Shown piece by piece: positions 11,650-39,012 of a stretch of DNA of 64,000 bases. A model generated the notes under the pieces. It worked only from the letters and a program-made list of their open reading frames with translations, made no database searches and was not told the origin of the DNA. How positions within the stretch are numbered: position 1 is the first letter of the stretch; each line of letters starts with the position of its first letter. Source of the DNA: Sporosarcina sp. FSL K6-2383 (GTDB taxonomy: Bacteria > Bacillota > Bacilli > Bacillales_A > Planococcaceae); the NCBI RefSeq assembly GCF_038618305.1, contig NZ_CP152017.1, positions 372,001 to 436,000 on the forward strand. The letters are read 5' to 3'. Both the position numbers and the translations under genes were made by a program.

Positions 11650-13023
11650 TTAATTCACAACCTCTAACAACGAACGTGCCTTATTAACTGTTTCCATGTA
11701 TTCTGCTGTCGGGTTCGATGCCGCCACAATCCCTGCACCCGCCTGTACGTATGCTTTTCCATCCCGCACAATCATCGTACGAATCGTTAACGCAAAATCC
11801 ATGTTGCCATTAAAACCGATATAACCGATGGCTCCGCCATAAATGCCGCGATCCATTTGCTCTAATTCATCAATCAATTCCATCGCTCGTGTTTTCGGTG
11901 TTCCCGTTACTGTACCCGCCGGCAAACACGCACTCAAAGCATCCAATGAGTGAAGCACTGGCGATAACGTCCCTTCCACTTCAGACACCAAATGCATGAC
12001 GTGCTCATAACGAACAACCTCCATATAGCTCGTAACGTCGACGGAGTCTGCTACACAAATTCTCGCTAGATCATGGCGTCCAAGTTCAACAAGCATATCG
12101 TGCTCCGACACCTCTTTCGGATCTGCACGCAACTCTTTTTCGAGCGCCACATCCTCTGCCTTGTCTTGCCCACGTCGACGTGTGCCCGCAATCGGATTCG
12201 TCATTACCTTGCCATTCGACACACTGACCAAACTTTCCGGCGACGTCCCCACCACAACATGATCGTCGAATTCCATATAGTACATATACGGCGAAGGATT
12301 ACGTTTTCTCAGCTTACGGTACAATGAAAACGGGTCACCTTTGAAATCAGCTACCAATCTTCTCGACAGCACAACTTGCTCCACTTCTCCTTCACCTATA
12401 TAACCTTTCGCCTGGCGCACCAAATCCTCAAACTGCTGTTGCGTTACAGAACTTGTATAGTCGGAGATTTCAAAGGTAGAGTCTTCATTTTCCGGTCCTG
12501 CCAACATACTTTCTGCTAACGCATCCAGGTCGGGCACACTTTGTACTTCATTAATTTCTGTATGCAGCAACGTCACTTCATTCAACACATGGTCGAAAAT
12601 AACGATGGTTTCATAGATATTAAAATTGACGTCCGGGAATCCTAAATTTTCCTCTGTACGGTGGCCATCTTCTCGTGCCGCCCCGTACCCGACATAGCCG
12701 ACCGCACCGCCTGTAAATGGAAAGTCGATATCATCCGTAATCCGCGGCATCAAACGTTTCAACAGCACAAACAAATCGCCCTCATGGCTGTATTTCTTCC
12801 CCGTTGCGTAGACATGCTCCTCAATTTTGCCTTCCCGTCCGCTATAACACTTCACCGGATCCATCCCAAGGAACGAATAACGCCCAGATCCTTCATGCTT
12901 CGAAGAACTTTCGAGTAAAAACTTTCGCTCGCCTTGCATTCTTCTAAAAATCAAAATTGGCGTAAGCGAATCACCATTAACCTTCTTCATCGTCGTCCTT
13001 AAACTCTTCTGCCCTGTGCTCAT
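11650..13023 (-). CDS. trpE: Anthranilate synthase component I
   Basis: TrpE makes anthranilate from chorismate using ammonia supplied by a glutamine amidotransferase subunit. The 457-residue protein has the N-terminal tryptophan-binding region including the LLESSSKHEGSGRYSFLG segment (feedback site LLES). Its chorismate-binding domain carries PSPYMYY, GTSPESLV, TNPIAGTRRRG, the ELVELGRHDLAR-type helix, SEVEGTLS, PAGTVTGTPK and GAGIVAASNP. The ATG at 13023 has GGAG seven bases upstream; the in-frame ATG at 13038 has a weaker site. No trpG is in this operon, so the amidotransferase must come from elsewhere, as with PabA in B. subtilis. Confidence 0.96.
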   Translation of the reverse strand: MSTGQKSLRTTMKKVNGDSLTPILIFRRMQGERKFLLESSSKHEGSGRYSFLGMDPVKCYSGREGKIEEHVYATGKKYSHEGDLFVLLKRLMPRITDDIDFPFTGGAVGYVGYGAAREDGHRTEENLGFPDVNFNIYETIVIFDHVLNEVTLLHTEINEVQSVPDLDALAESMLAGPENEDSTFEISDYTSSVTQQQFEDLVRQAKGYIGEGEVEQVVLSRRLVADFKGDPFSLYRKLRKRNPSPYMYYMEFDDHVVVGTSPESLVSVSNGKVMTNPIAGTRRRGQDKAEDVALEKELRADPKEVSEHDMLVELGRHDLARICVADSVDVTSYMEVVRYEHVMHLVSEVEGTLSPVLHSLDALSACLPAGTVTGTPKTRAMELIDELEQMDRGIYGGAIGYIGFNGNMDFALTIRTMIVRDGKAYVQAGAGIVAASNPTAEYMETVNKARSLLEVVN

Positions 13024-13115
13024 CTCATCTCTCCTCATCTCTTTTTGAGTTCATTTATAAATTGAAATCAAATACGCCTTGGCGTATTTGCGTCCAGATT
13101 TTGAATTGAGCTTGA

Positions 13116-13178
13116 GGCCTACAGGATGTAGGTCATGCAGTCGTTGCGACATGACGTCGCGAGTTTAGACTGCCTTCC
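13116..13178. repeat. 63-base double-hairpin module, copy 1
   Basis: It folds as CCTAC-AGGAT-GTAGG followed by GCAGTC...GACTGC enclosing GCGAC-ATGAC-GTCGC. It differs from copy 2 at 14 of 63 positions; eight of these form four compensated base pairs and the other six are in loops. Confidence 0.85.
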
Positions 13179-13210
13179 TTTAACTCCCCTCAAAATCTGT
13201 GACATCCGCG

Positions 13211-13273
13211 GGCCGACAGGATGTCGGTCATGCAACCTTTGCCACAGGACGTGGCGTTCTTTGGTTGCCTTCC
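13211..13273. repeat. 63-base double-hairpin module, copy 2
   Basis: It folds as CCGAC-AGGAT-GTCGG followed by GCAACC...GGTTGC enclosing GCCAC-AGGAC-GTGGC. It keeps exactly the same pairing pattern as copy 1 despite sequence change. Confidence 0.85.
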
Positions 13274-13315
13274 TTTTATTTTTATTCAGCAGGCATTTGA
13301 ACTTCTGCTGAATAA

Positions 13316-13365
13316 AAATAAAAAAAGCCCTCTGCAAAAGGACATAAAAGTCCGATTGCAGAGGA
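13316..13365 (-). terminator. Attenuator hairpin of the trp T-box leader
   Basis: On the minus strand CCTCTGCAA (13356-13364) pairs with TTGCAGAGG (13329-13337), with an inner GGAC/GTCC stem, followed by a run of T (13321-13326). The left arm also pairs with the T-box sequence in the competing antiterminator. Confidence 0.88.
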
Positions 13366-13780
13366 CGGAATAAACCGCGTTGCCACCTCTAATTGAAGCA
13401 TAACTGCTTCCACTTAGTGCGCCTAAATCAATTACGCCTCGGTGTAATTGTGTCCAGATTTTGAATTGAGCAGAGCTCAATTAACTCCTTTCAAAATCTG
13501 TGACATCCACCGGAGGCTTTAACTTGCTTCAGCAAGTTAATAAGGCACATCCCCTAACGCGGGATATACGTCTCCCTTGAACATATTCAAGGGAACTCTC
13601 ATAAGTCCATTCACATCGGCTGCGAATCAGTTTCCACCACCCACTGACTCTCTTAAATCGCGCACCCATGCTACTCTTCTTATTCAACAATTTCTCAGCT
13701 ATGCTCTTCTCATCTCGACTCATCTATCCGTGGGCGGCACCGCTCTCGGTACCTCCTGCCCGTCTTTGAACAAAAAAGTT
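13321..13780 (-). ncRNA. T-box riboswitch (tRNA-Trp sensing) of the trp operon
   Basis: The leader RNA starts near 13780 and precedes trpE. The T-box core AGGTGGCAACGCGG is at 13375-13388. The stem I apical part contains AGAGAGTCAGTGGG and GGTGGAAACTGA. The specifier position reads GAA-TGG-ACT, so the specifier codon is UGG (Trp) at 13607-13609. Antiterminator pairing of AGAGG/CGG with CCG/CCTCT competes with the attenuator. Uncharged tRNA-Trp should therefore switch on trpEDCFBA. Stem III is formed by GTGCCTTA (13541-13548) and TTAGGCGCAC (13417-13426), and a 114-base repeat fills its loop. Confidence 0.92.
13427..13540. repeat. Modular hairpin repeat, copy inside T-box stem III loop
   Basis: This copy has the framework palindrome (ACGCCTCGGTGT), the CAGATTTTGA/TCAAAATCTG stem with an inner GAGC/GCTC tip, the ATCCACCGGAGGC spacer and a terminal hairpin TTAACTTGCT-TC-AGCAAGTTAA. 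It matches 38864-38981 along its whole length. Its ends fall exactly at the two arms of T-box stem III, flanked by TAA on both sides. Confidence 0.88.
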
Positions 13781-38863: not shown

Positions 38864-38981
38864 ATCAATTACGCCTCGGCGTGATTGCGTCCAAATTTTG
38901 AATTGCATTTGTGCAATTCATTCCTTTAAAAATTTGTGACATCCGCCGGAGGCTTACCTTGCTTCGGCAGAAGCAAGGTAA
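38864..38981. repeat. Modular hairpin repeat, copy between lysR-type and CofE-like genes
   Basis: It shows the same order as 13427-13540: palindrome around ACGCCTCGGCGT, the CAAATTTTGAATTG stem with AAAATTTG and a TGCA tip, the ATCCGCCGGAGGC spacer, then the hairpin TTACCTTGCTTC-GGCA-GAAGCAAGGTAA. Relative to the T-box copy a G-C pair of the long stem is replaced by A-T on both arms. Confidence 0.85.
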
Positions 38982-39012
38982 ATAGACTTTATAATTCTGA
39001 GGAGCGATTCAA

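Follow-up and report, generated by a model that had tools for sequence, protein, structure and literature searches.

Two hairpin modules lie upstream of a trpE-like gene in Sporosarcina sp. FSL K6-2383. Both are copies of Bacillaceae-1 RNA (RF01690), carried as cassettes by a larger hairpin repeat, here termed the framework, that recurs at about 100 places in the genome. We consider it slightly better than an even bet (probability about 0.55) that framework and cassettes form a non-autonomous modular intergenic repeat in which the folded DNA hairpin is what matters, one arm is corrected from the other, and cassettes are exchanged at the tips. Copy number, slot states, empty sites in relatives, differences between orthologous slots, and strand-neutral covariation of the Bacillaceae-1 stems are established by direct observation. 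The relevant features of the window (the whole 64,000-nucleotide stretch that was analysed) are these:

11650..13038, minus strand: trpE-like ORF, 3′ of the T-box (ORF list)
13069..13090, plus strand: hairpin A of framework copy 1 (CAAATACGC-CTTG-GCGTATTTG; fold, and alignment with 100 framework copies)
13092..13203, plus strand: hairpin B of framework copy 1 (arms GTCCAGATTTTGAA... / ...CAAAATCTGTGAC), with module 1 in its tip slot (fold, alignment)
13118..13184, minus strand: module 1, Bacillaceae-1 RNA (RF01690), 73.3 bits, in the hairpin B slot
13213..13279, minus strand: module 2, Bacillaceae-1 RNA (RF01690), 69.7 bits, between hairpins B and D
13274..13323, plus strand: terminal hairpin D of framework copy 1, with 19-bp perfect arms, adjoining the T-box terminator
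13358..13696, minus strand: T-box leader (RF00230), 108.3 bits, in whose alignment framework copy 2 forms an extra stretch
13417..13424, minus strand: 3′ arm (leader sense) of a short hairpin in the T-box leader, host to framework copy 2 (by eye, relatives’ alignment)
13427..13541, plus strand: framework copy 2, slot empty, inside the trpE T-box leader (alignment)
13542..13548, minus strand: 5′ arm of that host hairpin, GTGCCTT in leader sense (by eye, relatives’ alignment)
38864..38988, plus strand: framework copy 3, slot empty (alignment with framework copies)

When modules 1 and 2 were compared over 64 nt (13116-13179 versus 13211-13274), they differed at 14 positions. Eight of these make up four swapped pairs (T-A to G-C, G-C to A-T, T-A to C-G, and G-C to C-G), and the other six fall outside the 16 pairs, none of which is broken; the count given in the earlier note was thus exact on recount. 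When 14 substitutions were placed at random, all 16 pairs survived in 140 of 200,000 trials. On each strand, the 281-nt region folded better than every one of 200 shuffles (plus, z −8.9; minus, z −9.1). An Rfam scan assigned both modules to Bacillaceae-1 RNA on the minus strand, well above the cutoff of 35 bits. The modules had been described as the two 63-bp arms of a hairpin repeat; the differences between them are as described, but each module is a two-hairpin cassette in its own right and not one arm of a shared hairpin. Bacillaceae-1 RNA consists of two hairpins with RUCCU terminal loops, and this description fits the modules of this genome as a family: among 60 distinct modules, the P1a loop reads GUCCU in 43 and AUCCU in 8, and the P2 loop reads AUCCU in 32. 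The AGGAY core that the earlier note ascribed to all of the hairpin loops is RUCCU read on the Rfam strand. It belongs to the module loops, except that one of the four in the window is ATGAC (the P1a loop of module 1, GUCAU, which departs from RUCCU), and it is not shared by the framework’s own hairpins.

The genome (3.67 Mb, one contig) holds 68 matches to RF01690, 67 of them above the cutoff, and the modules are therefore far from unique. Framework arms matched at 111 places with at most 3 mismatches, compared with 6 for the reversed pattern. From 123 genomic stretches around the RF01690 and framework-arm matches, a pattern script extracted 100 framework copies. The framework spans about 110-250 bp and is built of hairpins A, B, C, and D, of which D was located in 83 of the 100 copies. 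Alignment of these copies bore out the earlier suggestion that 13427-13540 and 38864-38981 share one framework. With slot classes set by length and by the pattern of a third hairpin repeat, E3, the hairpin B slot was empty in 57 copies, held a Bacillaceae-1-sized cassette in 30, held E3 in 5, and held Bacillaceae-1 with a nested E3 in 8. Two of the 30 Bacillaceae-1-sized slots are irregular: one fails the module pattern (L129), and one is an irregular E3-containing remnant (L124). The framework family thus combines constant outer parts with internal modules that may be present or absent, at sites scattered through the genome. An apparent mini-ORF in the framework (SD-like GAAAGGAG plus TTG on the minus strand, by eye) was rejected, as 26-nt slots disrupt its frame.

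E3 has 38 pattern matches in the genome and occurs in three unrelated tips: the framework slot, the P1a tip of Bacillaceae-1 (the first of its two hairpins), and a GC-rich repeat (L126). At one locus (L050, G000:C1:1368818-1369175), E3 forms a tandem array with 66-bp spacing and 6 pattern matches, and the upstream end of this array resembles a Bacillaceae-1 P1a tip. The GC-rich repeat is a fourth element, a long hairpin whose tip carries either Bacillaceae-1 (L058) or E3 (L126 and L341).

Framework and cassette both extend beyond this genome, in highly variable numbers. A framework arm (at most 2 mismatches) was found in 40 of 61 sampled genus genomes; counts ranged from 0 to 97, and the reversed control never gave more than 2. 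Using filters stricter than those of the own-genome scan, we found RF01690 in 30 of 37 genomes of the genus and 6 of 24 from other genera; it was also found in the Bacillus subtilis control. Copies per same-genus genome ranged from 0 to 69, with 7 of the 37 genomes at 0. Among the matches listed for an exact framework 20-mer were Sporosarcina, Lysinibacillus, Psychrobacillus, Filibacter, and others. The 20-mer also appeared in a contig labelled as a Saccharibacteria metagenome bin (L222), perhaps a contaminating contig. A search of the open-access literature for the exact framework and module strings found no paper.

At the trpE locus, framework copy 1 and both modules lie between the T-box terminator and ORF 11650..13038, which we take from its sequence and gene order to encode a trpE-like protein, anthranilate synthase component I. 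A close relative (G081) has neither framework copy 1 nor copy 2 here. Another relative (G014) has both, with the slot of copy 1 empty and module 1 missing. This orthologous difference, together with the slot states across the genome, bore out the proposal that the family is built from exchangeable parts. In an alignment of our T-box leader with those of 11 chosen relatives (L301, also a leader match, was left out), framework copy 2 was present in our own and the G014 leaders and missing from the other 10 of 12. By eye, and allowing G·U, a short hairpin can form at the copy 2 site in each of the 10 empty leaders, and its stem varies with pairing kept (GTGCC/GGCAC, GTGTCT/AGACAC, and GTGCTTT/AAAGCAC). 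Framework copy 2 sits in the loop of this hairpin, with about 5 nt of the relative’s loop gone (also by eye). In Sporosarcina sp. ACRSM (L231), the site orthologous to that of framework copy 3 lacks the copy and has a different hairpin.

We inspected 26 distinct gaps (27 rows, with L057 appearing twice) from 85 locus pairs. Many gaps were uninformative, the relative having other sequence there (e.g., L035, L036, L050, L083, and L017). Empty sites were found in G081 for L046, L045, L057, and L059, with 5-10 nt of the relative having no counterpart. The L046 and L045 sites resemble loops of short A+T-rich palindromes, and loop placement is less clear at L057, L059, and L055 (all by eye). No target-site duplication was seen at five sites (the T-box, L045, L046, L057, and L059), and a possible one of 10 nt was seen at L061. 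For the module at L014, no spanning empty site was found, and its flanks matched only separately. A general rule that all insertions fall in hairpin loops was not supported by permutation tests of flank complementarity: p was 0.15 for the 21 modules away from listed frameworks, 0.17-0.72 for the 14 of these judged truly standalone, and, for 83 framework sites, 0.03 with a 12-nt window and 0.07-0.73 with longer ones.

Slot contents also differ between orthologous framework copies of our genome and G081 or other records of its contigs (L053, L092, L063, L091, and one L049 slot), and the presence of E3 at the P1a tip of L064 differs between our genome and a relative. In G081, small extra hairpins with the tip TGYAGTTCAAT lie inside Bacillaceae-1 at L062 and L053 (L331:11269-11340 and L323:4120-4211); our own L062 module has no such hairpin. 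Bacillaceae-1 modules also sit in or beside other structured RNAs. One lies within a BsrG-like toxin-antitoxin RNA, where the model has a hairpin loop (L080:1466-1773), one lies in a tRNA cluster (L015), and one adjoins another T-box (L048). A further copy (L108:1501-1567) lies beside what by eye looks like a T-box antiterminator/terminator, with no above-cutoff Rfam T-box there. The family has been described as associated with rRNA operons, and a 2022 paper in Gene reportedly distinguished two classes of the motif. An Rfam scan of 20 of the 123 loci (∼3 kb each) gave tRNA, T-box, and BsrG matches and none to rRNA.

The framework is not oriented at random. GC skew, taken from the fetched stretches, divided the genome near 0.48 and 2.27 Mb, and 75 of the 100 framework copies run antiparallel to leading-strand genes (p = 6e-7). 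Sorted by neighbouring genes, defined as ORFs from a simple script, this orientation was found in 45 of 52 copies with both neighbours leading, 4 of 4 with both lagging, and 16 of 22 in divergent contexts; convergent contexts showed no bias (7 of 17). Orientation thus tracks replication or gene direction, two factors not fully separable at these numbers, and the four lagging-neighbour cases favour replication. Of the 68 Bacillaceae-1 copies themselves, 51 have their Rfam strand, and 17 their AGGAY strand, on the leading-gene strand. Among the 21 copies away from listed frameworks, the strand bias was not significant (13 versus 8).

The earlier note had taken kept pairing as a sign that the folded form is selected. 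The compensated pairs are real, and they recur across the family. In our alignment of the genome’s own modules (MAFFT; 61 of 68 matches, of length 60-70, 60 of them distinct, with 7 left out for inserts, duplications, or truncations), Watson-Crick pairs occupy 886 of 960 pair cells, G·T 17, and A·C 18, and the other copies thus keep their stems. Standard pairs make up 0.943 of cells, versus a shuffle mean of 0.79. Relatives contributed 75 matches from 146 of 208 foreign loci; the 71 distinct modules counted gave 1,077 Watson-Crick pairs of 1,119, plus 15 G·T and 9 A·C. Pooled, the two sets have 32 G·T and 27 A·C in the 2,077 cells where both positions carry a letter. This near equality weakens the selection argument: with G·T no commoner than A·C, the pairs may reflect templated correction of a DNA hairpin rather than selection on RNA. 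Changes to the stems were mostly two-sided. When 41 distinct modules of relatives were aligned by fitting to the model, 115 cells were two-sided, one-sided cells numbered 5, and unpaired cells 14, and the alignment exceeded all 500 shuffles on four of five measures, and the MAFFT alignment of the 60 own modules gave 163, 16, and 55, respectively.

As RNA yardsticks we used T-box stem I and terminator-like hairpins, tRNAs being too few (6 genes in 41 loci). In T-box stem I from 12 leaders of the same genus, G·T outnumbered A·C by 60 to 0 among 453 cells, in an RNAalifold structure that itself leans to G·U, and the contrast with Bacillaceae-1 was strong (p = 1e-10). The terminator-like hairpins of G081 had 47 G·T and 20 A·C in 720 cells; here, the G·T:A·C ratio differed from that of Bacillaceae-1 only at p = 0.10, with G·T rates of 6.5% in terminators versus 1.5% in Bacillaceae-1. 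The framework’s own hairpins gave G·T versus A·C counts of 32 versus 11 for A, 12 versus 6 for B, and 22 versus 16 for D (A and B in 95 of 100 copies; D only where 9 or more of the 14 pairs are Watson-Crick), and in the hairpin B stem, 1,104 of 1,140 pairs are Watson-Crick (95 copies of regular length). The pairing of Bacillaceae-1 is thus clearly strand-neutral, and that of the framework less so. Nearly exclusive Watson-Crick pairing, with G·T and A·C equally rare, favours upkeep of a DNA hairpin over selection on one RNA strand.

We suggest that the relevant fold is a DNA hairpin, formed either on the lagging-strand single strand or as a cruciform. As replication passes such a hairpin, template switching could correct one arm from the other and produce swapped pairs in one step; with one arm as template for the other, stem changes would be two-sided, intermediates would be few, and G·T would not be favoured. 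Hairpin tips may be broken and then repaired from another copy, swapping or adding cassettes at the tip, although plain gene conversion between copies, without tip breakage, could also explain the slot swaps. New framework sites would come from an event without a clean target duplication. The enlarged trpE T-box leader and other changes to transcripts would be incidental; the T-box insert may be tolerated because it is placed in a loop. Several observations limit this explanation: the contrast with terminators at p = 0.10, the lean to G·U in the T-box structure, the G·T excess in hairpin A, the 55 unpaired versus 16 one-sided cells among the own modules, the flank tests that gave no general rule of tip insertion, the confounding of orientation with gene direction, and the failure of the Y1_Tnp search to find a mobilising enzyme. 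As a more tentative proposal, Bacillaceae-1 and its partners could be DNA-hairpin parasites, rather than RNA genes, that grow by nesting into hairpin tips, their stems kept perfect by templated correction as the DNA is replicated. The tips that host cassettes would then include those of the framework, another cassette, a T-box, and the BsrG RNA.

The same data can be set against explanations in which RNA or an enzyme plays the leading part. Bacillaceae-1 could be a functional RNA, either a small RNA or a UTR hairpin for processing or stability, whose fold is selected and which is spread by the repeat. RF01690 is typed “Gene; sRNA” in Rfam, its loops are strongly conserved, its Rfam strand mostly coincides with the leading-gene strand, and it extends outside the genus to 6 of 24 sampled genomes and the B. 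subtilis control. However, Bacillaceae-1 stems show neither an excess of G·T over A·C nor more than a few one-sided intermediates, strand preference is not significant away from frameworks, same-genus genomes carry anything from 0 to 69 copies with several at 0, and one copy lies within another structured RNA; we regard this explanation as doubtful. Far less plausible still is that the opposite-strand loops (CAGGAYG) are CsrA sites and the copies a CsrB-like sponge. The genome does have one CsrA gene, and the loops ACAGGAUGU/ACAGGACGU are similar to the CsrA consensus in the literature, but the module loops differ from that consensus in length. With the AGGAY strand on the leading-gene strand in just 17 of 68 copies and no RNA strand preference in Bacillaceae-1 pairing, we judged a sponge to be highly improbable.

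We also searched for an enzyme that could mobilise the repeat. REP palindromes are linked to RAYT, and a REP/RAYT- or IS200/IS605-type single-strand DNA transposition, present or past, could in principle move framework and cassettes. Both ends of the framework are hairpins, a clean target duplication is missing at most inspected sites, and orientation is linked to replication, all as such a process would have it. The genome, however, yielded a single broken Y1_Tnp remnant (G000:C1:2327351-2327709) in place of the linked RAYT/TnpA-like gene that the earlier note had proposed to look for. Y1_Tnp was not found in five relatives with 5-21 framework-arm matches each (G016, G031, G065, G074, and G077), and it was present in three genomes with 0 framework-arm and 0 RF01690 matches (G012, G024, and G030). 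Y1 presence thus does not track the repeat across the genus sample, and the evidence so far does not support a Y1 transposase or RAYT as the mover. Nor did an autonomous parent element with matching ends emerge: none of 267 left arms, from loci covering part of the genomes, had a right arm 300-4,000 bp away that could bracket a transposase. The search for a mobilising enzyme, confined to Y1_Tnp, thus found none, and we consider single-strand transposition unlikely.

What these results add is a physical setting for an orphan Rfam family, as a cassette exchanged within a mobile hairpin repeat, with relatives supplying empty sites, one of them within a T-box hairpin loop. They also provide a simple test for separating RNA-level from DNA-level covariation, by counting G·U against A·C on each strand and two-sided against one-sided changes. 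If the DNA-hairpin reading is true, covariation by itself does not prove RNA function, and some covariation-supported Rfam families may record DNA mechanics instead. The module family was already known as Bacillaceae-1; less known is its cassette setting inside the framework repeat.

Bacillaceae-1 RNA has been known as a family since 2010 (Weinberg et al. 2010, PMC2864571). The modules resemble it in scoring above the RF01690 cutoff and in having two hairpins with RUCCU-type loops; what sets them apart is that they are cassettes of a dispersed modular repeat and that a single genome carries 67 copies above the cutoff. The closest analogue in organisation, compared here by description, is the pneumococcal BOX family. 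As described (PMC3049150), BOX elements are composite, strain-variable intergenic repeats with optional internal modules, they are inserted into each other, and one copy lies between two T-boxes upstream of trp. As described there, BOX modules are arranged in tandem, whereas framework cassettes nest in tips, and the BOX copy lies between T-boxes, whereas framework copy 2 lies within one, in a hairpin loop. REP elements (PMC3733652) are likewise high-copy, palindromic, intergenic repeats, and the framework differs from them in its larger modular layout and in that no linked RAYT was found. A looser analogue than BOX, organellar rather than bacterial, is provided by mitochondrial repetitive and double-hairpin elements, which are apparently mobile and hairpin-forming, some of them within rRNA genes (PMC2800124). 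In the sponge elements of that account, loops vary and stems are conserved, whereas in the Bacillaceae-1 copies here, loops are conserved and stems covary.
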